From: Hydnum rufescens UP504
Lineage: Eukaryota > Basidiomycota > Agaricomycetes > Cantharellales > Hydnaceae
Assembly: GCA_014904985.1 (NCBI GenBank)
Contig: MU129042.1
Coordinates: forward strand, 1 to 64,000
Reading direction: 5' to 3'
Length of the DNA stretch: 64,000 nt
Both the position numbers and the translations under genes were made by a program. Positions within the stretch are counted from its first letter, which is position 1. Each line of letters starts with the position of its first letter. The notes beneath the pieces are model-generated. The model had not been told where the DNA came from and made no database searches. It worked only from the letters and a program-made list of their open reading frames with translations. Of the stretch, positions 34,555 through 59,200 are shown piece after piece.

Positions 34555-35734
34555 ATGTTGTTCCTTGGCCAAAAAGCAAAAGGATTGATTAGGCGTAACA
34601 AGAAGAAATCTAAAGCCATTGCTGAGGCTGGTCCATCTAATGAGCCATCATCATCAAAATGGCGGAAGCATAACGAGGCCCCTCTCAATCTGCCCACTGT
34701 CCCCAACGATCCATACCAAGTTATCATCGGGACCCAGCTACCATCCGTCTGAAGTCTAGACCAGAGAAAACACAATGGTGTCATCTTTCTTGGAAAGGAA
34801 ATGGACGGTCAAGCACTGTATCAGCAGGCTGGGCTGCCAAGTTGCCAGCATCGACAACCATCCTTAGAGTCCATCAACACTGGCGACGATGACCCAGCTC
34901 ACCCCGCCTTGGGCGATTTCTTTGACTTCGACTATGGGCTTAATGCCCTGGACTACCGCATCCCACAAGAAAACCATCCAGTCCTTCTCCAGCAAGACAA
35001 TAGGCACGTCATCAAAGATAAGCAATCTTGCCACTCCCATCGACGATACGCCACTGCCCATAAATGGAATACAACTGTGCTTCCCAGTTTGCTTCATCCA
35101 TACATGGCCTTCCATGTGCAAACCAACTCTGGGCGCAATGTGATGCGGACTCCCACTGAAGTAGCGGCATGTACATGTGGAACACACAGCGTCCAGCTGG
35201 AGGTTACATGTGTGCATTTAAAATGTGCATCTTTTGGTGTCTCACTGAAACCACATCCTCACATTTTTGCAGATCTAGACTCTATCGTGCTTTATTAGTG
35301 TAAATGTAGGCCAGTGCCTGAGCAACTGGTGGGACGTGGGCTCTTTCCATGTGCACCAGTCCTCCCAAAGCTTGCCATTGATCTCGATATGCTCGAGTTT
35401 GCTACTGGGCTCTTCGTTAATTCATCACCAAATGAAATGGCATGGGCGGCAACTCTCACAGAGTTCCTTGATACTCGGGCTACATTTTTACTACTGAGGT
35501 TAGCATTCACATTCAAGCCCTTGATTGATCAAATCTAATATTTTATGGCATCAAGGACTCATTTTGGCAACACTTTGGAATGCACTCGTGCAATATCAGG
35601 TGCTCATGCAAGTTGTTGAGGCGGAGGTCCAAAAATCTGTTGAGATCGCCGGACACTCGTTCTCACTACCGTGCTGCAACATTACCCCATCGTCTCAAGG
35701 CAGAACTTCCACCAGTTGATGGATCTACCACATT
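34555..35734 (+). pseudogene. KDZ transposase 1, N-terminal half (before the insertion)
   Basis: The frame contains the Cys-rich N-terminal region (CTCGTHSVQLEVTCVHLK) found with Kyakuja-Dileera-Zisupton transposases. After an intron it reads CKCRPVPEQLVGRGLFPCAPVLP, the very conserved 'GLFP-aP' block, and MLEFATGLF, then a region matching the helical linker. Stops at 34750 (TGA) and 35296 (TAG, just before CKCR) show decay. The gene is cut at 35734 by a foreign element and resumes at 51152; deleting the element and one duplicated octamer gives a continuous frame from LPPVDGSTT into FKHDYLNSQSN. Transposase would act in the nucleus on KDZ ends; this copy is inactive. Confidence 0.85.
35727..35734 (+). 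repeat. Left target-site duplication ACCACATT of the outer element
   Basis: ACCACATT lies directly before CAGGCTGGTCAG and is repeated exactly at 51144-51151 directly after the other end. Confidence 0.9.
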
Positions 35735-35806
35735 CAGGCTGGTCAGTCACATGGGGGACCTAATTTAGGTACACTTTCAGGCAGAAAATGGTACCTAATA
35801 GGTCCC
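35735..35806 (+). repeat. Type I terminal inverted repeat of E1
   Basis: Begins CAGGCTGGTCAGTCA and continues to GGTACCTAATAGGTCCC. It contains short palindromes (ACCTAATTTAGGT, GGTACC). Related copies are at 39093 (same orientation) and 47814-47887 (inverted). Confidence 0.9.
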
Positions 35807-36189
35807 TCAAACCTTACAGCCGAAATCAGGCATTCCAATTCAGTTCTTTGGCCATCTATCGGCCAATCCATGGCTGTGCTGGATTATATACTTATTTATT
35901 ATTATGTATTTATTATTATTATTATTACTATTATATATACATATTATCCCCCCCCCTGCCACCACAGGGGGACGGTTCATGCGGGTCACGCGCCCACATA
36001 TACTCACCACACCGCTGTAGTGGCAGGATCCATATGCCCCAGTCAGGGACCAGTTCTGCTTGGCACCCCCTCAAGGGGGTTGCTTTTTGTTTGTGGGGGC
36101 TCGTTTGCGGTTTTCGTTTCCAGCGTGTCATTTGGCGGGTTTGTAGGGGGGTCGTGTGGGTTCTGGTCAAGGATCTAGAGAAATAAGGA

Positions 36190-37330
36190 ATAAAATATTA
36201 GTACAACATTACTGCAGCACAAAAGAGCAGCTTATGCTGCTCTTTTTGTGCCACAAGACCAAGAAATAAAACACTTAAAACATACCTTGTACCCCACACC
36301 TGCAGGTGTAGGGTACTGGGGCCATGCATGCTGGCTCATACATACGCCAGCTCGTACGTACGCCGGCTCATATGCACAGCGGTTCACATGGGTCCCCCAT
36401 CATTCGGGTGTCGATATGCAGGGTTACAGGGGGTTCTTTGTCAGTATTCGTTCGCGAGGGAAGTTGAAACCTACAAAATACTATGTTTAAATTAGTTAAG
36501 AAATAAGCACCATGCAAAAAGAGCAGCTTTCGCTGCTCTTTTTGCATGGCTGAAGCTACTGGAGGGGGGGGGGAAGGGACTCACCTGATATAGAACCACA
36601 CACCCACCATGGCAGGTGTGTGATTCCTGGGGCGTTATTTGATGCGGTCACACCCTCGTTTGGCATGTTGCCATGTCGCACTGTCATGTGTCGCGTTGCG
36701 GTGGTGCGCTGCTGTGTGTCACGTTGCGGTGGTGCGCTGCTGTGTGTCACGTTGCTGTGTGGCGTTGCCATATGTGGCACTGCCGTGTCGCGTTTCCATG
36801 CCTCACATTGCCGTTTGGCTCTCGTCATGCATTGGACAAGGCCTCATCTAAAATAAATAAACACACATTAGTAAAATATTCCAAAGCAGCGCAAAAAGAG
36901 CAGCTTTTGCTGCTCTTTTTGCGCAGCTGTAGCTACTGGGGGGGTACTCACCTTACATAGTACACACCTGCCATGGTGGGTGTGTGGCTCATTTGGCGCA
37001 GTTGTGTCCTTGTTTGGTGGGGTGCCGTATATCACGTTGCCGTGTGTCACGTCCTCGTTTGGCATGTTGCTGTTTGGTGTGTTGCTGTGTGTTGCATTGC
37101 CGTTTGGTGCGTTTCTGCATGTCGCATTGCGGTTTGGGCCCTTTTCATTTCATGGGTTCTCAAGGGCCTTGGAGCAGGCCTCAATCTAGTATAATAAATG
37201 ATGTGTTAGTAAAAAAATTCAAAGCAGCGCAAAAAGAGCAGCTTTCGCTGCTCTTTTTGCACTGTTGTATCTATTGATAAAAACACTCACCTTGTGACCA
37301 CACACCCGCAGCGGCGGGCGTGTGGTCATG
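36190..37330 (-). repeat. E1 short arm: four hairpin exon-intron units, minus strand
   Basis: Second-type hairpins (AAAAAGAGCAGC with GCTGCTCTTTTT) lie at about 36220, 36515, 36892 and 37228. On the minus strand each sits in an intron-like segment; for example 36471-36584 has donor GTGAGT, a TTAACTAAT branch-like site and acceptor TTTTGTAG (114 nt). Between them are first-type hairpins (ACCACACACCC with GGGTGTGTGGT) next to each donor. The exon-like spacers are GT/TTTGGCG-rich on the plus strand and contain stops, so I do not call them coding. Confidence 0.8.
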
Positions 37331-37387
37331 TGGTTGCCTTTCCAGGTGGTTGCCTGTTGTGTAATGGAGATGCGGATGAAGATGCAA

Positions 37388-37990
37388 ACTCAACGCTGGC
37401 AATTGCCGGTACTTAAAAAGTGCCCAAGTGCTGGTGCTACAAACATAATACATATGAGTAGCAAGTATCTAGACATGGAATACATGCTATATAATAAATA
37501 TTTGTCCAAAAATGCGAAGAAGAAGATGATAATAAGTCAGAGCTCACTAGGACATGACATGCCTGATTGCAGGGTGGGTTGGGCCACTTCTATAGGTCAG
37601 AATTAGCCCAAATTTAAATATATTAATGGTATATATGCACCCTACATGGGTGACTGATTATATTGGACAATCCGTCCAATATAATCAGTCGTCCATGTAG
37701 GGTGCATATATACCATTAATATATTTAAATTTGGGCTAATTCTGACCTATAGAAGTGGCCCAACCCACCCTGCAATCAGGCATGTCATGTCCTAGTGAGC
37801 TCTGACTTATTATCATCTTCTTCTTCACATTTTTGGACAAATATTTATTATATAGCATGTATTCCATGTCTAGATACTTGCTACTAATATGTATTATGTT
37901 TGTAGCACCAGCACTTGGGTGCTTTTTGAGTACCGGCAATTGCCGGCATTGAATTGCACAACTACTCACACCAGCAATGGCCCCGAAAGG
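37388..37990. repeat. E1 central palindrome
   Basis: A near-perfect inverted repeat with arms of about 280-290 bases is centred at about 37671 (ATTGGACAATCCGTCCAAT). Each arm carries GGTATATATGCACC-type sequence reading outward (TATA-like), then conserved GGGCCAC/CCCAA tracts, and a GGCAATTGCC palindrome near the outer end. The arrangement would suit divergent promoters firing into both arms. Confidence 0.85.
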
Positions 37991-38009
37991 CGAACACACA
38001 ACCACACAC

Positions 38010-39092
38010 CCGCTGCTGTGGGTGTGTGGTCATAAGGTGAGTTTTGTCTCAGTAGGTACAAAAAGAGTAGTGCAAGCTACTCTTTTTGTGCCACTTCGAA
38101 TTCTTTTACTGACGTAGCTTTTATTATTTTAGATTATGGTGGCCTGAGACGAAAACCCACCACACAATGAGGGCCCAAATGGCAAGAGCCAAACCAAAAC
38201 AAACAATGGACCACCCAATGGGTAGCCCAGGAACCACACACCCACTGTGGCGGGTGTGTGGTACTCTTTAAGGTGAGTTCCCCCCCGCCAATATATACTG
38301 TGGTGCAAAAAGAGCAGCGAAAGCTGCTCTTTTTGCGTTGCATTGGATTTTTTTACTAATACCTTTTATTATTCTAGGTCTTTGCCTGGTCCCGGTTGCC
38401 AAACGATGAGACCCCACCGGCCAGGGCCCCCACAGCAACACGCCAAACGAAGGTGTGAGAAGTGGTGATGTGAACCACACACCTGCGCAGCGGGTGTTCT
38501 ATACAAGGTAAGTATGCTTATACACCCCCAACAGCACAAAAAGAGCAGCAAGTGCTGCTCTTTTTGTGCTGGTTTTAATTTTTAACTAACAATCTATTAT
38601 TCTAAACTATCGCCAGACATGAAAGCCCGTGGAGCAAGCCCCCCCCCCCCAAACAATACCCTGTCCGCACAGCAAGGCCTGCATGCAGACAACGACGCGC
38701 CAAGCAGACAACGACAAGCCAAACGAAGACATGAAGCACACCTGCTACCGCAGGTGTGGTTCTATATGAGGTAAGCACTGTGGTGCACCCCCAACAGCGC
38801 AAAAAGGGCTGCGCTCGCTGCCCTTTTTGTGCCAATTTTAATTTTTTAATTTTTTACTAACATCACTTATTATTCTAGGTTCTCGCCTGATCACAAACAG
38901 CAAAATGAAGACTCGCCAAATGAACCCCCCATGGAAATGAGAATGCCCTTGCCAAATGAAAACCACAAATGCAACCCACCAAAATGAGTGCCAAATGAAA
39001 CCCGCTGACGACAATGGGCCAAGGAACACCCACCAGGCAAACCGCGGGAATGGGAACACCACAAGACAACAGAACCCCCAGACGAACCACAC
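38010..39092 (+). repeat. E1 long arm, proximal part: four hairpin exon-intron units
   Basis: Second-type hairpins lie at about 38058, 38304, 38535 and 38799. A clear intron-like unit is 38273-38377 (105 nt): AAG before GTGAGT, hairpin 38304-38341, ACTAAT at 38355-38360, TTATTCTAG at the end. First-type hairpins precede each donor. One acceptor is mutated (TTATTCTAA near 38601). The hairpin arms covary: GAGTAG/CTACTC at 38058 and GGGC/GCCC at 38799 instead of GAGC/GCTC. Confidence 0.85.
39085..39092 (+). repeat. Left target-site duplication of E2 (ACCACAC core)
   Basis: ACCACAC precedes the E2 start and ACCACAC(A) follows its end at 49612; 7 of 8 positions can be matched. It lies in the left arm of a first-type hairpin of E1; removing E2 rebuilds a perfect hairpin with arms ACCACACACC and GGTGTGTGGT. 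Confidence 0.7.
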
Positions 39093-39165
39093 CAGGCTGG
39101 TCAGTCACGGGGGGGACCTAATTTAGGTACCACTTTTGGGCAGAAAATGGTACCTAAGAGGTCCC
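39093..39165 (+). repeat. Type I terminal inverted repeat of E2
   Basis: Starts CAGGCTGGTCAGTCACGG and ends AGAGGTCCC; about 90 percent like the E1 copy at 35735. It is followed by the same conserved GGCCATCTGTCAGCCAATCC-type subterminal sequence and a TTA-repeat tract. Confidence 0.85.
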
Positions 39166-39539
39166 CCAAACCTTATGGCTGAAATCAGCCATTTCAATTC
39201 AGTTTTTGGGCCATCTGTCAGCCAATCCATGGCTGTGCTAGATTATTTATTATTATTATTATTATTATTACTACTATTATTATATACATATTATCCCCCC
39301 CGGGGTCTGCCACCACAGGGGGGGGGGCGTGGTTCCTGCGGGTCACACACCTGCATATACCCACCACACCCGCCGCAGCAGGTGGGGTTCATATGCCCCG
39401 GTCGGGGCTGGTTCCATTTGGGTGCTCCCTTGAGGGAGCAGGTTTTCGTTTGCGGGGGCTCATTCACGGTTTGTGTTCCCAGGGTGTCATTTGGCGGGTT
39501 CAGGGGGGGTTTGTGCGGGTTCTGGTCAAGGGTCTATAG

Positions 39540-40690
39540 AAATAAGGGATTCAATGTTAGTACAACATTAATGCAACACAAAAAGAGCAGCTTATGCTGC
39601 TCTTTTTGCACCACAAGACTAAGAAATAAAAAAAAAACATAACACATACCTTGTACCCCACACCTGCAGGTGTAGGGTACTGGGACCGTGCACACCGGCT
39701 CATCCATATGCCGGTGTGTACATATGCCGGCTCGTACGCATGGCGGTTTGTATGGGTCCTCCGTCGTTTGGGGGTCGATAGGCAGGGTTATGTGGGGTTC
39801 TTTGTCAGTATTCGTTCGCGAGGGCAGTTGAAACCTACAAAATATTATTTTTAAATTAGTTAGAAAATAAGGGCCATGCAAAAAGAGCAGCTTTCACTGC
39901 TCTTTTTGCGTGGCTGTAGCTACTGAGGGGGGCAGGGACTTACCTGATATAGAACCACACACCCACTGGGGCAGGTGTGTGATTCCGTGCCCTTGTTTGG
40001 CGCACTGCTGTGGGCTTTGGTGCAGTCGTGTCATTGGCCCATTGCTGTGTCGCATTGGTGTATCGCATTGCTGTGTCGCGTTGCCATGTGGCACGTCGCT
40101 GTTTGGGCTTTCGTCATTTCATGGGTTATTGTCCTGCGTTGGATGGGCCCTAATCTGGAATAATGCATGTCAGTAAAGAAAAAATTCCAAAGCAGCACAA
40201 AAAGAGCAGCTTTCACTGCTCTTTTTGCGTGCCTGTAGCTACTGGGGGGGGGACTCACATTATATAGTACCACACACCCGCCGTGGCGGGTGTGTGGTTC
40301 CTGGGGGCCTCATTTGGCGCGTTGCCGTAGGTTGCGTTGCCATGTGTCGCATTACCGTGTATCGCGTCTTCGTTTGGCGCATCTTCATTTGGTGTGTTGC
40401 CGTGTTGCGCCGTCGTGCGTCATGTTTCTGTGTCATGTTGCCGGATGTCGCGTTGCTGCGTCGTGTTTCCATATGTCACATGGCTGTTTGGGCTCTCATT
40501 GTGCGTTGGATGAGGCCTCAATCTAAAATAAATAAAGAGACATTAGTAAGATGTTCCAAAGCAGTGCAAAAAGAGCAGCTTTGCTGCTCTTTTTGCGCCG
40601 TTGTATCTACTAGAAAAAATACTCACCTTGTGACCACACACCTGCAGTGGCAGGTGCGTGGTCATGTGGTTGCCTTTTCAGGCAGTTGCT
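39540..40690 (-). repeat. E2 short arm: four hairpin units, minus strand
   Basis: The units are read on the minus strand, with donors GTAAGT/GTGAGT (for example CTTACC near 39941 and CTCACA near 40254 on the plus strand), TTAGTAAA/TTAGT branch-like sites and acceptors. They are clearly homologous, unit by unit, to the E1 short arm at 36.2-37.3 kb, including the exon spacer with GTTTGGCGCG repeats. Confidence 0.8.
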
Positions 40691-40719
40691 TGTTGTGGTT
40701 GCAGAGATAGGAAGCAAGA

Positions 40720-41395
40720 TGCAGATTCAATGCCGGCAATTGCCGATACTCAAGAAGCACCCAAACGCTGGTGCTGCAAGCACAGTACACAATAGTACCA
40801 AGCATATATATTATAGATGAATACTATATAATAAAATTTTGTCCAGGAAAACCCGAAGAAGAGGATGGTAATGAGTCAGAGCTCAATAAGGCATGAGATG
40901 GCTAATTACAGAGTGGATTGGGCCACTTCTACACATCAGAATTGGCCCAAATTTGAGTATAGTAGTGTTATATATACACTCTACATGGGCGATTAATTAT
41001 CTCGGACAATTTTCACATTTTTCAATTTTTCACACCTTCAATTCCCTATTTAGGGAATTGAAGGCGTGAAAAATTGAAAAATGCAAGGATCGTCCGAGAT
41101 AATCAATTGCCCATGTAGAGTGTATATATAAACTACTATATTTAAATTTGGGCCAATTCAGATGCATAGAAGTGGCCCAATCCACTCTGCAATTTGCCGT
41201 CTCATGCCTTATTGGGCTCTGACTCATTATCATTGCCTTCTTTGGGTTTTCCTGGACAAATATTCATTATATAGTATTTATTTTAAATATACATGTTTGG
41301 TACTATTGTGTGCTGTGCTTGCAGCACCAGCGCTTGGGCGCTTCTTGAGTATCGGCAATTGCCAGCATTGAATTCGCAACTATGCAGCCACACCC
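40720..41395. repeat. E2 central palindrome
   Basis: Inverted repeat with arms of about 310-330 bases centred near 41050 (CCCTATTTAGGG). It contains outward TATATATA-like sequences near 40970 and 41122, and outer GGCAATTGCC palindromes at about 40735 and 41354. It is homologous to the E1 and E3 centres. Confidence 0.85.
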
Positions 41396-41427
41396 AGCAA
41401 CAGAAATGCAACTGCGCGACCACGACA

Positions 41428-41436
41428 CAACAGCAA

Positions 41437-41471
<35 letters not shown>

Positions 41472-41496
41472 ACAGCAGCAGCAGCAACAGCAACAG

Positions 41497-41576
<80 letters not shown>

Positions 41577-41590
41577 GCAGCAACAGCACA
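41428..41590 (+). repeat. CAG/CAA trinucleotide array
   Basis: About 160 bases of CAGCAACAG/CAGCAG repeats, polyGln in one frame. It sits at the start of the E2 long arm, just before a first-type hairpin at about 41665-41690. E3 has an equivalent array in the same relative place. Long polyGln, polyCys and polyLeu frames over it are artefacts of the repeat. Confidence 0.95.
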
Positions 41591-41654
41591 CGACCACAAC
41601 CGCATGACCACAACCGCATGACCACAACCGCATGACCACAACCACACGACCACA

Positions 41655-42649
41655 ACCACATGACCACACACCCGCTGATGCGGGTGTGTGGTCATAAGGT
41701 ACGTTTTGTCTCAGTAGATACAATAGTGCAAAAGAGTAGCGCAAGCTACTCTTTTTGTGCTGCTATGAATTTTATACTAACATAGCCTTTATTATTCCAG
41801 GTCAAAACCAAAACAAATGACAGGCCACCCAATGAGTGGGCTCAGGAACCACACCCGCTGCTGCAGGTGTGGTACTGTAAGGTGAGTCTCCTCCCCCCCA
41901 ATAGATGCAGCCGCACAAAAAGAGCAGCGAAAGCTGCTCTTTTTGCGTCACTTTACATTTTTTAACTAATATTATTTGATTATAGGTATTGCCACAAATG
42001 AAGACCCATGAAGCAACCCCCAGAATGATAACATGCCCACAAACGGGATCCACAAATGACGACACGCCACACAAAGAGACAAACTACACACCCGCAGTAG
42101 CGGGTGTGTGGTTCTATACTTGATATGTACCCCTGACAATGCAAAAAGAGCAGCGAAAGCTGCTCTTTTTGCATCACTTTTAATTATTTTTAACTAATGA
42201 TTTTTTATTCTAGATATTGTCACAAAGGCAGAGCCCCAAAACAACCCCTCGACAGAACAAAAATACCCCCGCAAACGATGATGCAGCATGAAGAGAACCA
42301 CCCACCCGCAGTAGCAGGTGTGTGGTTCTATGCCGGTATGTAATGTTCCCCTGACGACACAAAAAGAGCGGCAAAAGCTGCTCTTTTTGTGTCACTTTTA
42401 ATTTTTTAACTAATGATTTTTTATTCTAGGTACAGTATTGTCACAAATGAAGACTGAAGACCCGCAAAGCAAGCCCCCCCACAATGATAACACGCCCGCA
42501 AAGGGGACCCCCGAACGACGACGTGCCAGAACCACACCCGCCGAAGTGGGTGTGGGGTAATTTTAAGGTGAGCATATAACCACGCAAGAGGAGCAGCGTA
42601 CGCTGCTCCTTTTGCATGGCTTTTCTTTTTTCCTTTTTACTAATGTATT
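41655..42649 (+). repeat. E2 long arm, proximal part: five hairpin units
   Basis: Donors GTACGT (41699), GTGAGT (41881), GTATGT (42343) and GTGAGC (42569) each follow a first-type hairpin; ACTAAC/ACTAAT sites and ATTCCAG or ATTCTAG acceptors follow the second-type hairpins. The last unit uses the variant AGGAGCAGC/GCTGCTCCT. The last intron-like segment is interrupted at 42650 by E3, between its branch-like site and acceptor; the acceptor TTATTTTAG is found beyond E3 near 47910. Confidence 0.8.
42642..42649 (+). repeat. Left target-site duplication AATGTATT of E3
   Basis: AATGTATT before E3 matches AACGTATT at 47888-47895 after it, 7 of 8 bases; the mismatch is a T/C transition. Confidence 0.8.
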
Positions 42650-42724
42650 CACCTTGGTCAGTCATCTAAGCCTACCTAGTTAGGTACCACTTCCAGGGCA
42701 GATAATGGTACCTAAGTAGGTCCC
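42650..42724 (+). repeat. Type II terminal inverted repeat of E3
   Basis: Begins CACCTTGGTCAGTCATCTAA and ends AAGTAGGTCCC. Subterminal sequence has repeats of AATTGGCCGAAA. Related inverted copies are at 49537-49611 and 51069-51143. Confidence 0.9.
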
Positions 42725-42999
42725 ATCACTATTTCGGCCGAAATGGCCATTTTTATGATTTCACCTCCTCGCCCAGAATTGGCCGAAATGGCTGAAAATT
42801 GGCTGAAAATTGGCCGAAACTGGGACTTAGAGAATCTCAGACTTGCAGCAGGCCATACGGGCTTATTGGGGATAACATGTTCCATTTATAATTATTTATT
42901 TATTTATTATCACTGCTACCCCCAGTCAGTGGGGTTTAATTCGGCAGTTCTGTTTTATTCTTACTGAGTTGTTTATTTTTTATTTATTTATTTATTTAA

Positions 43000-45375
43000 A
43001 AAGTCACCACACTCACTGAGGTGTGGTACCATCCGTAGAAATTTAAAATAAAATATAAAAAAAACTATCTAGTGGCACCACACCCGCTTAGGCGGGTGTG
43101 GTACCGTCCGTAGAAACTTATAAACAAAAAACTATGTAGTAGTACCACACCTGCTTGGGCAGGTGTGGTCGGGGGTGCGGCTTGGCACTTCACCGTTGGG
43201 TGCGGGTTGCCATTGGGGTAGGTCGTCATTTCGGGGGTTTCAATTTGGATCCTAGAATCATACTGTATGTTAGTAAAAAAAAATTGAAGTGATGCAAAAG
43301 GAGCAGCTTGTGCTGCTCCTTTTGCATCATTGCACATATAGAAATTTGAAAAAAAAACCTTTGTAGTACCACACACCCACCGAAGTGGGTATATGGTACT
43401 GTTTTGTACCAGCTGGGCATCATTTTGGGGGTTCGCAGGCGTCCGTTCTCACGGCTGTCTTTGGCGGGGTCGCGGGTCTTTGATTTGGGGGTTAGTGCAG
43501 GTGGTAGGCTCAGGTGAAAATCTAGGAATAAATAACGTGTTAGTAAAGAAAAAATAAAAAAAGAAAGCCACGCAAAAGGAGCAGCATACGCTGCTCCTCT
43601 TGCGCGATTGTACTTATCTTGAAATTACCACACACCCGCTTCAGCGGGTGTGTGGTTCGTCCGGGGTCCCTGGACCTTGCGTCGTGCGTCCCCGTTTCTG
43701 GGTTTCGATTTGGCGGGTCGTGTTTGGGACTCTCCGTTGGCGGGTGCGTTGTCATTTCCAAAGGGGGGGGGGGTTTCATTTGGCGGTAGTTCAGGCGAGA
43801 ACCTAGAACCTAGAATAATGAATTTGTTAGTTAAAAATAAAAATGGATGCAAAAAGAGCAGCAAGGCTGCTCTTTTTGCGCCCTTGGGGATGCATTACTT
43901 ACCTTGTATAGAACCACACACCCGCGATGGCAGGTGTGTGGTTCGTACCAGTTTTGGCATCGTCCCGTGTCTTCGTTTGGCGCGTCGTCGTTCGCGGGCA
44001 TGTTATCGTTTGGGTGGGGGTCGCACCGCGGGTCTTCATTTGTATTTGTGGTGATACCTAGAGTAAAGATTTATTAATTAAAAAATTAAAAGCGACGCAA
44101 AAAGAGCAGCTTTCGCTGCTCTTTTTGCGCCACAGTATCTATTGAAGGGGGGGAACTCACCTGAACTAGTACCACACCCCCGCCGAAGCGGGTGTGTGGT
44201 ACTCCCTTTGCACCCTGGTCACGTACTTGGTTCTGTACGGGGGGGCTGGTCGTCACTTGGGCAGGTGTGTTGTTTCGCGGGTCTCGGTTCAGATCCTAGA
44301 GTGAGAATGTCAATTAGTAAAAAAAATTCAAAGTGACGCAAAGGGAGCAGCTTACGCTGCTCCTTTTGCATCGTTGTACATATAGAAATCAAAAAAAATA
44401 AAATAAAAACCTTGTAGGACCACACCCACTGAAGTGGGTGTGGTCCTTGGTTTGTACCGCGGTCGTGCGGTTCGTACTCGGTACGGGGCTTGGTCGTCAT
44501 GTTGGGGGTTTGAACTCTCACGGGTTTCGTTTGGCGGGTCCGTTGCCGTTCTCGTGTGTTTGCTTGGTGGGGTTGTGGGTTCAGACAACCTAAAATAATG
44601 TATAATACGTTAGTAAAAAGGAAAAAAGAAAAGCCACGCAAAAGGAGCAGCGTACGCTGCTCCTTTTGCGTGGTTATATGCTCACCTTAAAATTACCACA
44701 CACCCGCTCGAGCGGGTGTGTGGTTCGTCTCTTCGTGTGGCACGTCGTCGTTCAGGGGTCCCCTCTGCGGGCGTGTTATCGTTGTGGGGGGCTTGCTTTG
44801 TGGGTCTTCAGTCTTCATTTGTGACAATACTGTACCTAGAATAAAAAATCATTAGTTAAAAAGAATTAAAAGCGACACAAAAAGAGCAGCTTTCGCTGCT
44901 CTTTTTGCGTCATCGGGGGTGCATTACATGCCTTGTATAGATAGAACCACACACCCACAGTAGCAGGTGTGTGGTTCATCTCTTCATTCGCGGGTCTCCT
45001 TTGTGGGCGGGCTTGCTGCTTGGGTCTTCATTTATGGCAATACCTAGAATAAAATATAATTAGTTACAAAATTAAAAGCAATGCAAAAGAGAGGCTTTCC
45101 CGCTCTTTTGTGCGGCTGCATCTATTAGGGGGGGGGAGACTCACCTTAAATAGAACCACACCCGCCGCAGCGGGTGTGGTTCCTGGGCTCACTCAACTGG
45201 GCGGCCTGTTTGTTTTGTTTGTTTTGATCTGGAGGAATAGAGGCTACGATATAAAAATTCATGGCAGCGCAAAAAGAGTAGCTTGCGCTACTCTTTTGCG
45301 GTATTGTATTTACTGAGACAAAACTTACCTCATAACCAACACACCCGCATCAGCGGGTGTGTGGTCATGCGGTCG
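43000..45375 (-). repeat. E3 long arm: nine hairpin units, minus strand
   Basis: On the minus strand the units have ACTAAC/ACTAAT sites followed by TTCTAG or TTTTAG, and GTGAGT/GTAAGT donors next to first-type hairpins such as ACCACACCCGCTTAGGCGGG. Both hairpin types show paired changes; the second type alternates between AAAAAGAGCAGC and AAAAGGAGCAGC, with matching 3' arms. Unit at 45080 is the most degraded. Confidence 0.8.
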
Positions 45376-45383
45376 GCGGTCGT

Positions 45384-45513
45384 GCACTGTTGCTGCTGCT
45401 GTTGCAGCAGCTGCAGCAGCTGCAGCTGCTGCAGCAGCTGCAGCAGCTGTTGCTGCTGTTGCTGCTGTTGTTGCTGTTGTTGCTGTTGTTGCTGTTGTTG
45501 CTGTTGCTGTTGT
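45384..45513 (-). repeat. CTG/CAG trinucleotide array with internal palindromes
   Basis: On the minus strand this is CAG/CAA-rich, equivalent in position and orientation to the array of E2. Its left half contains CAGCAGCTGCAGCAGCTGC-type stretches that are themselves palindromic. Confidence 0.95.
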
Positions 45514-45559
45514 GTCGTGGTTGTGCGGTCGCTTGCTGGGTGTGGCTGTGTAGAGTTCG

Positions 45560-45985
45560 AAATTCAACACCGGCAATTGCTGATACTCAAGAAGCGCCCA
45601 AGCGCTGGTGCTGCAAGCACAGTACACAATAGTACCAAGCATGTATATTATAAATAAATACTATATAATAAAAAATTGTCCAGGAAAACCTGAAGAAGAG
45701 GATGGTAATGAGTCAGAGGTCAATAAGGCATGAGATGGCTAATTACAGAGTGGATTGGGCCAATTCTGATGCGTAGAAGTGGCCCAATCCACTCTGTAAT
45801 TAGCCATCTCATGCCTTATTGACCTCTGACTCATTACCATCCTCTTCTTCAGGTTTTCCTGGACAATTTTTTATTATATAGTATTTATTTATAATATACA
45901 TGCTTGGTACTATTGTGTACTGTGCTTGCAGCGCCAGCGCTTGGGCACTTCTTGAGTATCGGCAATTGCCAGTGTTGAATCTGCA
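45560..45985. repeat. E3 central palindrome, shortened
   Basis: Near-perfect inverted repeat with arms of about 200 bases centred at about 45771. Compared with E2 it lacks the innermost part with the TATA-like sequences, so if those are promoters E3 has lost them. GGCAATTGC palindromes mark the outer ends. Confidence 0.85.
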
Positions 45986-46059
45986 TCTTGCTTCCTATCT
46001 CCGCAACCACAACAAGCAACCGCCCAAAAAGGCAACCGCATGACCATGCACCCGCCACT

Positions 46060-47400
46060 GTGGGTGTGTGGTCACAAGGTGAGTATTTTTTCTAGTAGAT
46101 ACAACGGCACAAAAAGAGCAGCGAAAGCTGCTCTTTTTGCGCTGCTTTGGAACATCTTACTAACGTCTCTTTATTTATTTTAGGTTGAGGCCTCGTCCAA
46201 CGCATGATGAGAGCCCAAACAGCCATGGGACATACGGAAACACGACGCAGCAACATGACATCCGGCAACACGACACAGAAATGCGATGCACGACAGTGCA
46301 ACACGGCAACGCGCCAAACGGCAACGCGCCAAATGAAGATGCGACACATGGTAATGCGACACACAGCAACCCAACCTACGGCAACGCGCCAAACAAGCAC
46401 ACAACCGCGCCAAATGAGGCCCCCAGGAACCACACACCCGCCACGGCAGGTGTGTGGTACTATATAATGTGAGTCCCCCCCCCCAGTAACTACAGGCACG
46501 CAAAAAGAGCAGCGAAAGCTGCTCTTTTTGCATGGTCTTTAACTCTTAACTAACATATAATCTTATATTCCAGGTCACCACTTCCCGCACGAACGAATAC
46601 CTATGCAAGAACCCCCATAACCCCGCCCGTCGACACCCGAACGAGGGGACCCGTACAAACCGCTGCACATGTGAGCTGGAGTATGGCTCCAGTACCCCAC
46701 ACCCGCTGGAGCGGGTGTGGGGTACTACAAAGTAAGATTTCTTTTCGTTTTTTTATTCTTGTGGTGCAAAAAGAGCAACGTAAGCTGCTCTTTTTGCGCT
46801 GCTTTGGAATTTTTTTTTTACTGATGTGCATTATTCTATATTGCGGCCCCTCCAACGCAGGACGATAACCCACGAAACGACAAGAGCCCAAACAGCGATG
46901 TGCCACACAGCAACGCGACATGGCAATGCGATACACGGCAACACAATACACCAACGTGACACAGCAATGGGCCAACGACGCGACTGCACCAAAGCCCACG
47001 GCAACGCACCAAACGAGGGCACGGAATCACACACCCACCCCGGCGGGTGTGTGGTTCTATATCAGGTAAGTCCCCACCCTCCTCAGTACCTACAGCCATG
47101 CAAAAAGAGCAGCGAAAGCTGCTCTTTTTGCGTGGTTTTTGATTCTAACTAATTTAAAAACTTTATCTCACAGGTCTCAATGCCCCCGCAAATGAATACC
47201 AACACAAAACCCCTGTGCCCCCCGTATTGACGCCCAAATGACGGACATCCGTAGGAACCGCCGTATGTACACGGGCTCAGTACCCCACACCGCTGCAGCA
47301 GGTGTGGGGTACTAGGAGGTATGTTTTATTTTTATAAATTTCTTCTTGTGGCACAAAAAGAGCAGCATAAGCTGCTCTTTTTGCGCTGCATTAATATTCA
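46060..47400 (+). repeat. E3 short arm: five hairpin units, plus strand
   Basis: Units are homologous to the E1 and E2 short arms, now on the plus strand. Donors GTGAGT (46079, 46470) and GTAAGT (47066) follow first-type hairpins; ACTAAC/ACTAAT sites and TTTTAG/TTCCAG acceptors follow the second type. The long spacer at 46190-46440 is made of short CAACGCGCCAAAC-like repeats. Confidence 0.8.
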
Positions 47401-47813
47401 ACTAATGTTTCCTTAATTATTTCTTTAGATCCTAGGCCAGAACCCGGGCGAACTCCCGAATACAAATCCGCCGAACGACATCGCCGACGATAACCACGAA
47501 CGAGCCTGTGAATGAAAACCGGCCCCCTTGAGGGAGCACCCAAATGGAGCCGGCCCCCAATCGGGGTGTGTGAACCCCACCCACTGCAGCGGGTGTGGTG
47601 GGTATATGCAGGTGCATGACCCGCATCAACCATCCCCCCCTGTGGTGGCAGACCCCGGGGGGATAATATGTATATAGTGTAATATGTATATAATAATAGT
47701 AGTAATAATAATAATAATAATAAATAAGTATATAATCTAGCACAGCCATGGATTGGCCGACAGATGGCCCAAAAACTGAATTGGAATAGCCTGATTTCGG
47801 CCGTAAGGTTTGG

Positions 47814-47887
47814 GGGACCTATTAGGTACCATTTTCTGCCCCGAAAGTGGTACCTAAATTAGGTCCCCTATGTGACTGACCAGCCTG
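47814..47887 (-). repeat. Type I terminal inverted repeat of E3
   Basis: Inverse complement of the CAGGCTGGTCAGTCA type end, ending the element at 47887. Confidence 0.9.
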
Positions 47888-49080
47888 AACGTATTGTATG
47901 TTATTTTAGGTTGTCTGAACCCATGACCCCACCAAGCAAACACACAAGAACAGCAACGGACCCACCAAATGAAACCCGCAAGGGTTCAAACCCCCAACAT
48001 GACGACCAAGCCCCGTACCGAGTACGAACCGCATGACCACAGTACAAACCAAGGACCACACCCACTTCAGTGGGTGTGGTCCTACAAGGCTTTCATTTTT
48101 TTTATTTGATTTCTATATGTACAATAACGCAAAAGGAGCAGCGCAAGCTGCTCCCTTTGCATCACTCTGAATTTTTTTACTAATCGAGAGTCCAACTGAA
48201 GCCATGCCAAAAGAAAACCCGATGAACGCACCACCAAACCCCGCCGAACGAAAAACCAATGCAAACCAGACACCTGCCATGGCGGGCGTCTGGTACTATT
48301 TAAGGGAGGCGATTTTCCCATATCCAACAGTGCAAAAAGAGCAGCGAAAGCTGCTCTTTTTGTGTCGCTTTTAATTTTTTAACTAATAATTGTTCATTCT
48401 AGGTATCGCTGCAAATGAAGACCCGTGAAGCCCCGCCAGAATGACAACATCCCCGTGAACAATGATGCGCCAAACACAGAGACGAACCACACACCCGCAG
48501 TAGCAGGTGTGTGGTTCTATACAAGGTATGTAATGTAACACACCCCCAATGGCGCAAAAAGAGCTGCGAAGGCAGCTCTTTTTGTGTCATGTTAACTTGT
48601 ACTGATCTAAATTTTTGTATTCTAGATCTTCCTTCCCCCCAAACGAGTATGTGCCCGAAACCCCCCCAACCCACCTGAGAACTGTACGGAAAACTGGCAG
48701 TCGAAGGTATGCAACCCGGACAACAATGAGTACCACACCCCCACCAATGCGGGTATGTGGTACTACAAGGTATTTTTTTTAAACTTTCTACATCTACAGT
48801 GACGCCAAAGGAGCAGCGCAAGCTGCCCCTTTGGCATCACTTTGAATTTTTTTTTACTAATGTTCATTATCATTCAATTCTAGGATTGAATTTGAAGCTC
48901 CCGAAATGAAGACAACAGACAGCCGCAACCCCCAAATGACCTGCACAACAGTGAACCGCCAAGCCAAGCCCGCCCAAATGGCCACCGACGAGCTGGGTGA
49001 GCCCCCATCCAAGCCCCAAGGCAGCAATGCCCAGTACCACATGCCCCCCTCAGCGGGGGTGTGGTACAAAAGGTCTGTTT
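47888..49080 (+). repeat. E2 long arm, distal part: four hairpin units
   Basis: It opens with the AACGTATT duplication and the displaced acceptor TTATTTTAG (about 47910). Second-type hairpins at about 48128, 48332, 48552 and 48801 include compensatory variants GAGCTGC/GCAGCTC and CCAAAGGAGC/GCCCCTTTGG. The first-type hairpin at about 48267 has arms CCAGAC and GTCTGG instead of CCACAC and GTGTGG, a clear paired change. Confidence 0.8.
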
Positions 49081-49536
49081 TTTAACTTAATATTTTGCTG
49101 CCCGACACCCCAGCAACATGCCCCCTGAACCTGCATCTGAACACTGGATGACCCCCCGTCCAAAGTCTCAAGGAAGCAACAGATGGTACCACACCTGCCC
49201 TAGCGGGTGTGGTATGTTTTTTTAATTGAATTTTTAAATAAATAAATACATAAGTTGATAAAAAAACATGAGACTGCCAAATGAAAACAGCCCCCACCTG
49301 GGGTGAGTGATAATGATAATAAATAAATAACTATAAATGAAACACCAGAGGGGGGAATATAATAATAAATACAGGTGATTATCCCCAATAAGCCCGCATG
49401 GCCCGCTGTCCTGCAAGTCTGAGATGCTCTCTAAGTCCCAGTTTCGGCCAATTTTCGGCCAATTTTCGGCCATTTTGGCCAATTCTGAGCCAGAAGGTGC
49501 AGACCATAAAATGGCCATTTTGGCCGGAATAGTGAT

Positions 49537-49611
49537 GGGACCTACTTAGGTACCATTATCTGCCCCAAAAGTGGTACCTAACTAGGTAGGCTTAGATGAC
49601 TGACCAAGGTG
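49537..49611 (-). repeat. Type II terminal inverted repeat of E2
   Basis: Inverse complement of CACCTTGGTCAGTCA, ending at 49611; preceded by the AATTTTCGGCC subterminal repeats. Confidence 0.9.
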
Positions 49612-50790
49612 ACCACACACCTGCTTCGGTGGGTGTGTGGTAATTTTAAGTTAAGTATTTCTTATGTATAAATACAATTGCGCCAAAGGAGCAGCATATG
49701 CTGCTCCTTTGGCAAAGCTCTTTCTCTTTTTTTTTTTTTCTTTTCGCTAACATATTATTTATTTATTATCCAGTTCCAGGTTCCAATCTAAACCCACGAC
49801 CCCGCCAAAAAAGACCTGTGAACAGCAACCGCGATGCAACTCACCACACCCAACCAGCAAACCGAGGGAAAATGGGCCAGACCACACACCCACTGTGTGG
49901 TCATCCAAGGTGAGTTTCATTCCCATAGATACAGTGGCGCAAAAAGAGCAGTGAAAGCTGCTCTTTTTGTGTCGCTTTAACTGTTTACTGATCTAAAATT
50001 TTTTATTCTAGATCTTGCTTCCCCCCTGAACGAGTATGTGCCCAAAAACCACCAACCTACCTGAGCACTGTACAGAAATCCAACAGTCGAAGGTGTGTGA
50101 CCCCAGGCAATAACGAGTACCACACCTGCTTTGGCGGGTGTGTGGGAAAAAAAAAACTTCAGTGACGCAAAAGGAGCAGCGCAAGCTGCTCCTTTTGCGT
50201 CATTTCAAACTTTTTTACTAACATAAGTTATTATTCTAGGATGGAATTTGAAGATCCCAAAATGACAACACCCCAACGGACACCTGCGATCCGTCCAAAT
50301 GACCCACCTAACAGTGAACCACCAAGGCACACCCCCCCAAAACAGCGGCTGGTGAGCTGGCTGAATCCCGGTCCAAGTCCCCCAAGGCAGCAATGCCCAG
50401 TACCACACCCGCTGAGGGGGGTGTGGTACAAAGGTGTGTCTTTTTTTTTGTTTCAGTTTAGCAAGTGGCACAGAAAGAGCAGCATGAGCTGCCCTTTCCG
50501 CGCCAAGCTAAGCTTTTTTTTTTTAATTCTAGGTTATCGTACAATAGATACTGCCCATGACATCTCCCCCCTTCGAAAACTGGCCGAACCCCTGATGAAG
50601 CAAGGGAAGGTACCACACACCTGCTTGGCAGGTGTGGTGCTACTAGATATATATATATGTATTTAAATTTCTATGGATGGTAACCACACCTGCCCAAGTG
50701 GCTGTGGTGTTTTTTTTTGTTTTTTTTTTTTTGATTTCTATGGACAGTACCACACACCCGCTAGAGCGGGTGTGTGGTGCTACCATTTTT
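49612..50790 (+). repeat. E1 long arm, distal part: four hairpin units
   Basis: Second-type hairpins lie at about 49681 (CCAAAGGAGC/GCTCCTTTGG), 49937, 50165 and 50470, with GTGAGT donor at 49910 and TTATTCTAG acceptors near 50010 and 50240. First-type hairpins continue to 50780 (CCACACACCCGC/GCGGGTGTGTGG) without paired second-type hairpins near the end. Confidence 0.8.
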
Positions 50791-51068
50791 AAATAAATAA
50801 ATAAATAAATAAATAAACAAGTAATGAACCATGGGACTGCTGAATGAAACCCTGTTGACCCCAGGTAGCCTATGCATAATATAGTGATAATAAATAAATA
50901 ATTATAAATGGATCACATTATCCCCGATAAGCCCATATGGCCCACTGCAAGTCTGAGATTCTCTAAGTCCCAGTTTCAGCCAATTTTCAGCCAATTTTCA
51001 GCCATTTCAGCCAATTCTGGGCCAGGAGGTGAAATCATAAAAATGGCCATTTCGGCCGAAATAGTCAT

Positions 51069-51143
51069 GGGACCTACTTAGGTACCATTATCTGCCCCGG
51101 AAGTGGTACCTAACTAGGTAGGCTTAGATGACTGACCAAGGTG
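51069..51143 (-). repeat. Type II terminal inverted repeat of E1
   Basis: Ends TGACTGACCAAGGTG at 51143, directly followed by the octamer ACCACATT. Confidence 0.9.
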
Positions 51144-51151
51144 ACCACATT
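51144..51151 (+). repeat. Right target-site duplication ACCACATT of the outer element
   Basis: Exact copy of 35727-35734, directly after the type II end of E1. Confidence 0.9.
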
Positions 51152-52780
51152 ATTCAAGCACGATTATCTCAACAGCCAGAGTAATGATGGACACATTCCA
51201 CAATCCAAATCTGGTGAGCCACAACAGCACCCCAGCGCCTATCTTCATTCCCGGTGCCCTCTCTGCTTTGGAGGATGACCTCCAGTTCCTCAAGAGAACA
51301 CATCAGTCTATTCCTAATTTGTGGTGTGATGTTGTCCTAATATTCATCGTTGCAGTCCACACGTCGTTGTTTGCATAGATGCCAATTTCCAACAGAAGCA
51401 GAACCATGATAAAGACCATCAAAAAGGGCACGAGAAGGATGAGGGGATGAGAGATCCGCCCCTATTCAGTCCCTGCTCTGTCCAAGTCTCCAAAGCTTAT
51501 CTGAAGGATTGGGAGGCGAAGGTCAATGGTATTCGAAACTATCCACTTACTACCAAGGCTGGTTCGAAGCATAAGGCTGGCAAGATGGTTGAGTCTGACT
51601 CAAACGCAACAGATGCTGAGGACCGATGCAAGCCTGGGATGCCTATTCCCAATTCATGCACTGACTTGTGTGGTGAGTCATTTATTGCAGCTGACAGCAA
51701 TCATGTCAAGGCTTCGACTATGTACTTTTCTGACACCAGCATGATGGCCATGCTGTGTCGCCACAATATAGTTCTTTACTGGGCCAACATGTGGACAGCC
51801 GGTGAAAAACAGTTCTTTGCTTTGGCATTGCTGGCCGCTCTCATGGCCGAGCTCCTGGTGGATTGGACAGTTGGGTTCTTATATGACATAGCGTGCCAGA
51901 TGCACCGAAGTCTAATCAAGTGGGACTTCTTGCCCCAGTTTCTCCTGTGACTCCTGTTCGCCATATCAGTTTTTCATGCTTATGGCCACCAATGGGTGTG
52001 CCAATTGTGGTATCACCCATGTAAGGCTGGAATCTGGGGTCTCTCAGATGGAGAGGGCTGTGAGCAGTTTTGGAGTATGCTTCGCGACTCATTCCAGGCA
52101 TGCATGTCACTGGAGTGAGTTTTCACCATTTAGTGTACACTATCTATACTAACGGTCCTCCAATCCTAGTATCATTGCCGCCTATTCGTCCTGAACCTCC
52201 AGATCACCCACATTCACCAAACACAGTTGTTCGGTCTGGGCGAATGGCTTCAGCGACACATCACGAAAACAACAAAACATCTAATGGATGTTTCTCCGAA
52301 GCTCGAGGCTTGTGGCCACTCTTCTGACTTTCTGCATCAGCAGTTCACCCAGCAATGAAAATATCAGAGTAGGCCTCTTACCCGTAAGTGCTCCTTAAAC
52401 CTTCAGCATGAGTGCCCACTGTAATGTACCTTGGATAGGCCAATCAAAAATAGCAGTATCAAGGCCATCGAGAAGATTGTTGCATTATGGGAATCTGTGT
52501 CAACAATCAAGACGGCGATTGCCAAGCTTGAGAGCAAGCTGATGAAATATGTCCTGATGGATTCTATCACTGTTAGCAGCACTTGCTTCAACATATTGAC
52601 AAGTATTGAAGCAAAGGCTCATGTTCTCATTTGTCTTCAGAAAGACATTGATGCTGTGACGAACTACCTCAATCTTCATGACAAGACTTCTGCAGCCAGG
52701 CTGAACAAGATCAAAGGGGAACTGTCAGGCCACGCTGCGACGAGAGCACCAAACAAATATAAACACAGATATTCCGGCTA
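51144..52780 (+). pseudogene. KDZ transposase 1, C-terminal half (after the insertion)
   Basis: After the duplicated ACCACATT the frame continues FKHDYLNSQSN and reaches AYLHSRCPLCFGG (about 51250-51287), the Cys-containing motif typical of KDZ transposases. Following an intron, CIDANFQQKQ carries the first catalytic Asp (51378-51380). Then come MLCRHNIVLYWANMWTAGEK, VGFLYDIACQMHRSLIKWDF with the second Asp (51885-51887), HAYGHQWVCQLWYHP, and DGEGCEQFW with the catalytic Glu (52061-52063). A C-terminal coiled-coil part reaches about 52725. TGA at 51948-51950 and further stops near 52355 show it is inactive. It is interrupted at 52727 by another repeat. Confidence 0.85.
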
Positions 52781-56236: not shown

Positions 56237-59200
56237 ATGCCCAGCAACGCTCCAATACGTGGGCTTGTTCGAGTTGGATTTTCGAACCAACTAGAGGCAA
56301 ACCCCAGTCCACTACATCAATCTCCACGTCGTAATGCTCCAACTCAACGTCGTAATGCCATCGTGGATAGGACCGCTCTCACTGGCAACCCAATCATTCA
56401 TATTAGCGAGCCGCCGGCGTCACACATTCGCAATACCGTTCCTGCTATTGTTGGGGCATCTGATCCACATAGATCAAATCCACGCATACGGAATGTAGTA
56501 TTCCAGGGTTTCAATCGCCAGTGTATGACTATCCAGAGTGTAAGGATCCTATCTGTTGTACAGGAACCTATCATTAACAAACCAACAGGGCGTTGTTGAA
56601 TCTGAGGGAACTCCAAGGCCCAGGAGCCACCATGCATCTCGTACGTCACATCGCAAGAAACCAAGGCGACCCGCAACATCAAAGGCATTAAATTCCGAGT
56701 CATGCAGTATGCAGCCACCAACTGCCGCCCACCATGGCGATTCAAATAATTGATTCACCCCCCGCCTCATACAGTCTCATGACAATCATCCTGTAACTCC
56801 CGCACGCAGGCCTTTTGAACTCTTCGACAGAAGTACCGCACGTCCACCACCAATCGTCCCTCAAAAACAAAAAGTCGATGCTTTCATTCCCGTGATTCAT
56901 GCTGGGGGCCGGACTCTGTATCAGAGAAATACTCAGCTACTTCATGCGAAGTGTAGTCATGCAGAAACTAGGACAGGTGAAAATGATGACAGTGGTGCAC
57001 CAGTGGCTCCCGGTTCGATATCTCTGGACGATCTCGGTGCGAATGATGTATTTACTGAGTCTCCTGCTGTCCGTTCTCCAACAAAACAAACATATCGCAC
57101 AACGTCAGAGAAACGAACGGCATCTGCTAGGCGATGGAACATGATTCTCCCTCAGTTGGTGACACCATACACAAAGCTCATGAGCACAACTTCCAACGGG
57201 CGGCACCCTGTGCCAACTTTCCGCAGTTCGTGCACGAAAACTAACTGTAATGGACCCTCCAGGCGGAAACTTAAGGTTACATGTGTCTATACAAAGTGTT
57301 TGTCGATTTTCTTTCTATTTCTCATGGGTACTAACATCCTAAATAATGTAGACCTCGAAGAGATTTACCTCGATGTTTGCAAATGTTGCCCCACAAGCCT
57401 TCAGCTCCTTGAGCGGGGCCTCTTTCCATCTGCCCCAGTGCGACCTACGCTCACAGTCGATCTTGATCAGCTTGATCTTGTATCAACACTGTTCATGGTC
57501 GGTGCCCCAAATGTCATGAACTGGGCCGAGACTCTCACATCGTGCCTGGCAAGGAAGGGGTATGTGCTCGGGGGTCAGGTTAGTAGTCTACATTTGAAGC
57601 TTCATGTTTCCCTCATCTTTTGAATCAACAGGACGTTCTTCGTCGTCATTATGGCCAGGCGCTACAGTATTACCGAGTCATGATTGACATGGTGTCTCAG
57701 ACTGTCAATAATGCGATTGAATCCTCTCGGAAGCGCCAGGCTCAAGGGGAACATGCTGTGATCCCACAGACGTTCAAATCGCTGGCCGGGAACCCCATCA
57801 CACGTTCCTACTTCACCCAGGACGAGGACCACAAACCATCACATGATGGGAAGCGCCCGAGCCCTTATCTTCGCTCACAATGCCCAATCTGTTGTGGCGG
57901 CGATACTTATTTAACCACAGATGGGTTGTACGTTATCAATTTAGAATACACTGGGACCAAAGCTAACTTTATATTGATTCTAGGCCCGATATACAGTTTT
58001 CTGGCGATGCGTGTTTCATGCAATCGCGTGAGTATGATGAACATGGGGTTCATGACCCTGCTCTCAGTGACTGTCCCCCACGCACTCTATTCATTTCACC
58101 AGAGGAGTGCGAGGCTATGAAACGCTACATAGAAGGGAAATGAAACAGCAAAGTCCCAAATGTAGATCGTGAGAATGGCGAATCATTTAATGCGGCGAAT
58201 GAGGCTCGATCGAAGAGTAAGAAATTGAAATTCGACGATACAGGGCTTGTTGCAGCTGTTTGTCGCCACGACCGCATCTGGTACCTTGTCAACATGACAG
58301 AGGCTGGCGAAAAGCAATATTATATGTTCGCCATACTGGACAAAATTTTTCAAGAGATTCCAGGGAACTTTACAGTGGGATTTCTCCATGATCTCGCATG
58401 TCAATATCACAGAAGCATGATGAAGGTACGTTGTCTTGTCATGTATTTCTACCTTGGGTAAATTCGGCTTAACAAACCATCCGCAGTGGAAGATCCTGCC
58501 CAAATGGGCAAACCGTATTCTTTTCAGTCTACCAGCATTGCATGCATACGGGCACCAGTTTGTGTGCCAGATCACGTATCATCCCCACAAAATCGAAGCC
58601 TTCAGACGCACAGATGGCAAGGGGACTGAACGGTTTTGGAACTCTATCAGCCCTTTGATTCATGTTTGTCGAGTATCGGGGGTTCGTTTGCCATCATCTC
58701 AAGTGCCATTAAATGCATACTCATGACTCTGCAGTTTCACCAGTGTCTCTATACAATCGATACAAAACTCGCATATCTTGATCAACAAAACCTCAAGCGA
58801 CTAGGCGGATGGCTTAGCCGACGATATCAGGACACCACGAAAAAGATATCCGAAGTGGGAGTCCAGTTGGTCAAATTAGGAATACAGCCATCCCAGTTGG
58901 ACAACTTGGCACGGGACTGGAACGAGGCGAAACTCTACTACCAGGCCCAAATTCCAAGTGTGTCAATCTTCTCTATTCTTTAAAGTTCCCTGCCGACATT
59001 GCTCCACAGGCCGTGGGAGGCAAGGGATGGAAAAAGAGATCGAAGGTCTCCTCCATCTCCGAGACAGTCTTGAACTCGTTTGAGGCCATATTACCAAGGT
59101 CGGACGACAAATCGATGTTCTCGTTAGTGCTGGATGCATCGGCACTCCTCTCGGACTTCAGAATGATGAACTTAGTGAATTGATGGAGCAGGAATGCATG

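Follow-up and report, generated by a model that had tools for sequence, protein, structure and literature searches.

What is the 15.4-kb tract at positions 35735-51143 of the window (the whole stretch of DNA analysed, the first 64,000 nucleotides of contig MU129042.1, assembly GCA_014904985.1) from the ectomycorrhizal mushroom Hydnum rufescens UP504 (genome in PMC7550596), and why does it alternate hairpins with ordered, intron-like signals? A sequence-only reading had taken it for a foldback-like transposon family whose arms are arrays of hairpin and intron-like units. We found that the tract consists of three copies of one element, nested within each other. The element is mobile, has ends in common with elements coding for a KDZ (Kyakuja, Dileera, Zisupton) transposase, and carries arms of repeated units with a defined anatomy, with little variation in the hairpin stems and a bias toward G.U pairs on the strand that points outward. 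The best explanation, which we hold with moderate confidence, is a non-autonomous transposon moved by a KDZ transposase, with a two-way palindromic promoter and arms read outward into spliced noncoding RNA.

The nested copies and their units

The element ends were located by pattern: the A-type end CAGGCTGGTCAGTCAC at 35735, at 39093 and, reversed, at 47887, and the B-type end CACCTTGGTCAGTCATCTAAG at 42650 and, reversed, at 49611 and 51143. Pairing A-type with B-type ends gave three copies, E1, E2 and E3, properly nested (E3 in E2 in E1). Each has one A-type end, one B-type end (CACCTTGGTCAGTCA), a palindromic centre and a target duplication of 7-8 bp. Once inserts are discounted, they measure ca. 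4.9 kb (E1), 5.3 kb (E2) and 5.2 kb (E3), so that the three ca. 5-kb copies with a central palindrome described earlier are indeed present, nested and not side by side. Long, internally repetitive inverted arms surround the centre, as in foldback elements. Read outward, a unit of these arms comprises an exon ending in a first-type hairpin, H1 (CCACACACCCGC..GCGGGTGTGTGG), a donor (GTGAGT, GTAAGT or GTATGT), a second-type hairpin, H2 (AAAAAGAGCAGC..GCTGCTCTTTTT), a branch site (ACTAAY) and an acceptor, most often TCTAG. The median intron is 105 nt long (207 units) and the median internal exon 159 nt (127 exons). The parts of the three copies are as follows.

35735..51143, plus strand: E1, outermost copy, A-type end left and B-type end right; own DNA 35735-39092 and 49612-51143
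35727-35734 and 51144-51151: target duplication of E1, ACCACATT
37387..37955: central palindrome of E1, two 282-nt arms with 96% complementarity and 5 nt between them
39093..49611, plus strand: E2, inside a first-type hairpin of E1; own DNA 39093-42649 and 47888-49611
39086-39092 and 49612-49618: target duplication of E2, ACCACAC; flanks match E1
40717..41381: central palindrome of E2, two 250-nt arms with 88% complementarity
42650..47887, minus strand: E3, uninterrupted, inside E2 beside a branch site, in the orientation opposite to E1 and E2
42642-42649 (AATGTATT) and 47888-47895 (AACGTATT): target duplication of E3, one mismatch; flanks match E2 at 99-100%
45562..45980: central palindrome of E3, two 206-nt arms with 98% complementarity and 7 nt between them
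45981..47428, plus strand: A-side arm of E3, five units of exon ending in H1, donor, H2, branch site and acceptor
42650..45561, minus strand: B-side arm of E3, with nine second-type hairpins; its units run outward on the minus strand
47776..47887, minus strand: A-type end of E3, CAGGCTGGTCAGTCAC with a subterminal palindrome; shares 16 identical bp with KDZ-coding elements
42650..42760, plus strand: B-type end of E3, CACCTTGGTCAGTCATCTAAG plus subterminal palindrome

All of the ca. 39 second-type hairpins previously counted in the tract were recovered (35 classed as H2, and four scanned with a 6-nt loop at 38059, 39879, 40198 and 49940). A 12-bp scan that accepted every kind of hairpin having 10 or more of 12 pairs returned 85, against 3-4 in five dinucleotide-preserving shuffles. 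The splice signals had been said always to point away from the centre. Judged by the flanks only, with GTGTGT inside H1 counted as a donor (later scans exclude it), this held for all 36 hairpins that could be oriented, each pointing outward from its own centre, while three of the 39 stayed undecided. Across the window and 37 fetched loci (L001-L004 left out), 202 of 298 hairpins had a donor together with a branch or acceptor signal in one orientation, none had them in both and 96 in neither, compared with 11 of 298 in either orientation in a shuffled-flank control; under a looser rule, donor, branch site and acceptor followed in order on one strand in 207/249, against 29/249 in the control. 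These counts are not independent because the units are paralogues, 294 of the 298 hairpins chaining into one cluster when we clustered for independent units. Taken together, the palindromes, paired ends, hairpins and splice-signal counts support a transposon of foldback-like build, its arms composed of repeated hairpin and intron-like units. A plain satellite was rejected, since the units lie between defined ends with target duplications. Folding of one unit gave z = -5.7. Membership of a known RNA family was also discarded, as none of the 45 Rfam matches at E up to 0.1 in 35000-51600 reached its gathering score.

Ends, KDZ transposase and mobility

Two KDZ-coding elements (L035 and L036) start with the same 16 bp as the array element, and reading frames of L035 match PF18758, CxC1 and CxC2. 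Given these identical ends, we take the array element to be, most probably, a non-autonomous foldback-type transposon of the KDZ group. Both kinds of element follow a common end plan, in which the terminal 16-mer precedes a subterminal palindrome (TTAGGTACC..GGTACCTAA in the array element, ATTAGATATAAT..ATTATATCTAAT in the KDZ-coding one). Using 601 bp from the KDZ-coding end as a query, we scored 40 of 153 candidates, and among these the KDZ-type end was present over the full 601 bp at 12 places; a PF18758 match lay 1.6-3.1 kb inward of the shared end at six places (C5, C57, C76, C109, C130 and C157). At C4, a diverged array copy bears a KDZ-type end, 84% identical over 102 bp. Near the KDZ gene of L035, joined with L037, a second end (CAGGCTGGTCAGCCAC) was seen at position 4460 in direct orientation, and an end resembling it, reversed, near 5590; they had no matching duplication.

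KDZ elements (PF18758) are described with CA..TG ends and duplications of 7 bp (Kyakuja) or 8 bp (Zisupton) in PMC12730594, and the array element agrees in both and in the 16-bp end; it differs in having no coding capacity and in its foldback arms of unit arrays. For the Kyakuja elements of Laccaria, the same source reports CA..TG ends, duplications of 7 bp and an absence of terminal inverted repeats. The lineage name Kyakuja was considered and withdrawn: the CA..TG ends agree, but half of the duplications here are of 8 bp and a short terminal inverted repeat, which Kyakuja is said to lack, is present. We left the lineage within KDZ unnamed.

The right end of E1 adjoins a further KDZ sequence in the window.

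51330..52085, plus strand: KDZ transposase gene remnant, PF18758 matches at 51363-52085

Judging from the joined flanks of E1, in which one frame reads through into CPLCFGG, resembling CPLCAGA of the L035 transposase, this gene seems to have been interrupted by E1. Another KDZ-like gene fragment, with CxC2/CxC1 matches below cut-offs, is found at 56754-58117.

To gauge abundance, the assembly (63.2 Mb, 539 contigs) was searched for exact matches. The H2 hairpin CAAAAAGAGCAGCNNNNGCTGCTCTTTTTG occurs 2112 times (reversed-pattern control, 0), the A-end 15-mer 320 times (control 0; KDZ-coding elements are included in this count) and the B-end 21-mer 317 times (control 0). In the window and 20 loci, two opposed ends could be paired in 17 copies, ten of which are flanked by a target duplication: 7 bp in E2, L010, L016, L018 and L022, and 8 bp in another five, exact in E1, L017 and L019 and with one mismatch in E3 and L024. 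Some copies are rearranged. Those at L011 (1228-6121) and L012 (1390-6304) have two A-type and two B-type ends, as if arms had been swapped, and an A-A copy at L023 (3656-9901) lies within a larger palindrome that takes in ca. 0.8 kb of flank per side (inverted self-match 83%, 6.5 kb).

Of 47 element ends with a flank of 60 nt or more (window plus L009-L028, loci not randomly chosen), 11 have array DNA directly outside, and three of the ten duplications (E1, E2 and L010) start with ACCACA, the start of H1. A preference for inserting into its own hairpins is possible.

Constraint, strand bias and the possible role of the arms

For the A-side arm, 15 of 27 aligned rows were compared (L001-L004 were dropped as duplicates of longer loci), using the E3 arm as reference. 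Most substitutions there reflect CpG decay, with C>T at 0.21 and G>A at 0.20 per CpG site against 0.026 and 0.028 elsewhere, so that CpG sites change about eight times faster than other C/G sites. The internal stops of the KDZ matches listed are mainly TGA (not counted). This combination of a CpG excess and TGA stops would fit methylation-linked C-to-T decay.

CpG columns were removed from the diversity figures, as was unit 5, misaligned in six of the 15 copies and included in the per-site splice counts; for these figures the H1 position of unit 1 was also shifted by 4 nt. What remained was 0.0071 in H1 stems (75 sites), 0.0089 in H2 stems (90 sites) and 0.0129 in the splice core (40 sites), compared with 0.0593 in other intron sites (227) and 0.0429 in exons (412), and as much as 0.212 in H1 loops (8 sites) and 0.254 at degenerate splice positions (six). 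The P value for the splice core against other intron sites was 0.008, which, like those given below for the other arm, is optimistic because the copies share ancestry. The GT and positions +3 to +5 of the donor and the CT and A of the branch site are invariant, and the acceptor AG varies (0.064; three changed acceptors in 60). The B-side comparison, in which sites were complete in 7 of 9 L017 units and 2 of 7 E3 units, gave zero diversity in H1 stems over 178 sites (P 0.04) and P 0.14 for H2 stems. In the 15-copy A-side comparison, hairpin stems and splice cores are, outside CpG, much less variable than other intron sequence.

Stem substitutions also carry information on strand. With both strands counted and the remainder of the stem required to pair, substituted positions in H2 were 221 Watson-Crick-matched, 80 wobble and 38 unpaired, and those in H1 173 Watson-Crick-matched, 130 wobble, 88 unpaired and 6 other. 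On the outward strand, H1 stems had 128 G.U against 57 A.C pairs over 216 hairpins, or 68 against 32 over 75 distinct stems, and H2 stems 31 against 19 over all hairpins. At neutral sites of the A-side arm C>T equals G>A and T>C exceeds A>G, a skew that would favour A.C. The opposite preference in H1 points to selection on an outward RNA or to a transcription-linked strand effect, and either would imply outward transcription.

Public gene models add an external view of the introns. The translation of the spliced arms matches 15 predicted proteins, all from H. rufescens. When these models were compared with the 207 unit introns, a junction (within 3/14 residues) was found in 24 and, in a shifted-junction control, in none. 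The matches amount to five places in four proteins; four are exact, one of which appears to use a donor inside H1. Mapped back, model P0121 had its best place at 93%, and its exact source was not found. Gene callers accept these introns as such. The earlier suggestion that the arms are transcribed from the centre and spliced gains indirect support from the stem and splice-core constraint, the G.U skew and the four exact junctions, from which we infer both processes.

Under the explanation that we favour, a KDZ-superfamily transposase would act in trans on the element, recognising its CA..TG ends and subterminal palindrome. The palindromic centre would serve as a two-way promoter, and outward reading of each arm would yield a noncoding RNA whose short exons end in H1 and from which introns of ca. 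105 nt, with H2 between donor and branch site, would be spliced out. Intron arrays and hairpins might be kept because, with them, the outward RNA can accumulate and pass as proper spliced RNA, and this could keep the chromatin of the element active, protect it from silencing, or both. In Cryptococcus neoformans, removing introns lowers the mRNA of most genes tested, with intron number acting cumulatively, according to the summary in PMC3744415; stacked introns could in the same way let a noncoding element keep its RNA. A more specific proposal is offered only tentatively, namely that the cargo is a pair of divergent noncoding RNA genes with selected introns and hairpins, read outward from the palindromic promoter, and that spliced RNA, not protein, serves the element, either by keeping transcription or chromatin active or by shielding it from a silencing that senses poorly spliced RNA.

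In the fetched DNA (218 kb, counting duplicates), there are 40 occurrences of the sequence GGCAATTGCC and 38 of TATATAGTATTTA. GGCAATTGCC is also present next to a near-perfect palindrome at L038 (G000:C57:66200-69200), each arm of which contains a single H1-GTATGT-H2 unit; L038 has the look of a minimal relative of the array element. This suggests the centre plus the first unit as the core, with the palindrome as a putative promoter. The outer arms of L038 are minisatellite-like repeats, and it adjoins a KDZ-coding copy.

Several results weigh against the favoured explanation. One or both splice signals are missing at the 96 of 298 hairpins mentioned above, the acceptor at 46839 (A-side unit 3) is changed in E3 itself, and gene models read through 13 of the 207 unit introns. 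In the B-side arm, splice core (0.0036) and other intron sites (0.0058) did not differ significantly (P 0.40), a comparison with too little non-CpG change to have power. The G.U excess vanishes in H2 when 29 distinct stems are counted (9 against 9). Seven of the 17 two-ended copies (L009, L011, L012, L013, L014, L015 and L023) have no duplication; the ends paired there may derive from two separate copies. Likewise, the one two-ended copy of the KDZ-type end, at C200, has a right end 99% identical over 203 bp, no duplication and, among the matches listed, no KDZ match inside. Finally, the short terminal inverted repeat departs from what is stated for Laccaria Kyakuja (PMC12730594).

A rival reading is that the arrays are relics, i.e., a captured exon-intron segment that was tandemly duplicated, whose signals persist through youth or homogenisation (unequal exchange, gene conversion) and from which nothing is spliced today. 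The units do look like one paralogous family, the B-side copies show almost no non-CpG change, and template switching within a palindrome could likewise produce perfect stems. Yet A-side variation falls on the degenerate splice positions and spares the strict ones, and the outward G.U skew runs opposite to the neutral transition skew, so we regard relics as unlikely, if far from negligible. Less probable still is a role at the DNA level, in which the hairpins would be repeated transposase-binding sites or cruciforms and the splice-like words incidental. Few sites vary as little as the H2 stems, in which paired changes are seen, and the Galileo transposon has several transposase-binding sites in its long repetitive inverted repeats (abstract of PMC3688188), but neither the ordered donor, branch and acceptor words of one polarity nor the G.U skew would be predicted.

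We give very little credence to arms that encode a repetitive protein, in spite of the 15 matching predicted proteins and of two spliced chains in 25 (L016 and L017) with a stop-free frame longer than in all 40 shuffles. Internal exon phases are spread (37/45/45 of 127), and on the sense strand the other 23 chains are no better than shuffles, whereas 13 of 25 surpass them on the antisense, where a frame has no meaning, for which reason we put long stop-free frames down to composition. Introners spreading one by one into genes are equally hard to credit despite the intron-like signals and the abundance of H2, since fungal introners are said to lack duplications and terminal repeats (as summarised in PMC9860276) and six loci picked for having one or two exact hairpins proved, in a sample that was not genome-wide, to be array parts, with no lone unit outside arrays or in a gene. 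The same six loci lend no support to the earlier idea that units spread as DNA hairpins.

Related systems and neighbouring sequence

The mobility class of this element is a known one. The family had been called unrecognised, which still describes the arms, for which no precedent was found, but not the ends, which tie it to the KDZ superfamily. Noncoding host genes of small nucleolar RNAs have a comparable layout, with noncoding exons and a structured RNA in each intron; the array units differ in being carried by a transposon and in matching no Rfam family at gathering score. Galileo, of the P superfamily in Drosophila, resembles the element in its long, internally repetitive inverted arms like those of Foldback, but belongs to another transposase superfamily, and its abstract describes the repeats as transposase-binding sites, with no intron-like units (PMC3688188). 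Tetris of Drosophila virilis is likewise non-autonomous and foldback-like, with tandem repeats inside its inverted repeats and terminal parts in common with another element; its repeats are plain 220-bp units that seed satellites, and no splice-like polarity is described in the abstract (PMC4079207). Introners are mobile DNA with splice signals too, although they are presented as single introns in genes (summary in PMC9860276), whereas here introns are tandem parts of transposon arms. No transposon with intron-array arms was found in the open PMC literature, a scope that leaves aside subscription papers and repeat databases, so that an unnamed catalogue entry may exist.

Should the arms prove to be transcribed and spliced, selection would be making a noncoding transposon resemble a gene rich in introns. 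The reason for which basidiomycete RNAs require introns, and the means by which silencing distinguishes the RNA of transposons from that of genes, could then be tested directly in a natural system. The element also ties the foldback architecture to the little-studied KDZ transposases.

Elsewhere in the window, at 10922-12925 and 23184-24666, there are genes with tandem 138-bp repeats coding for tetratricopeptide repeats, with a run of N between them.

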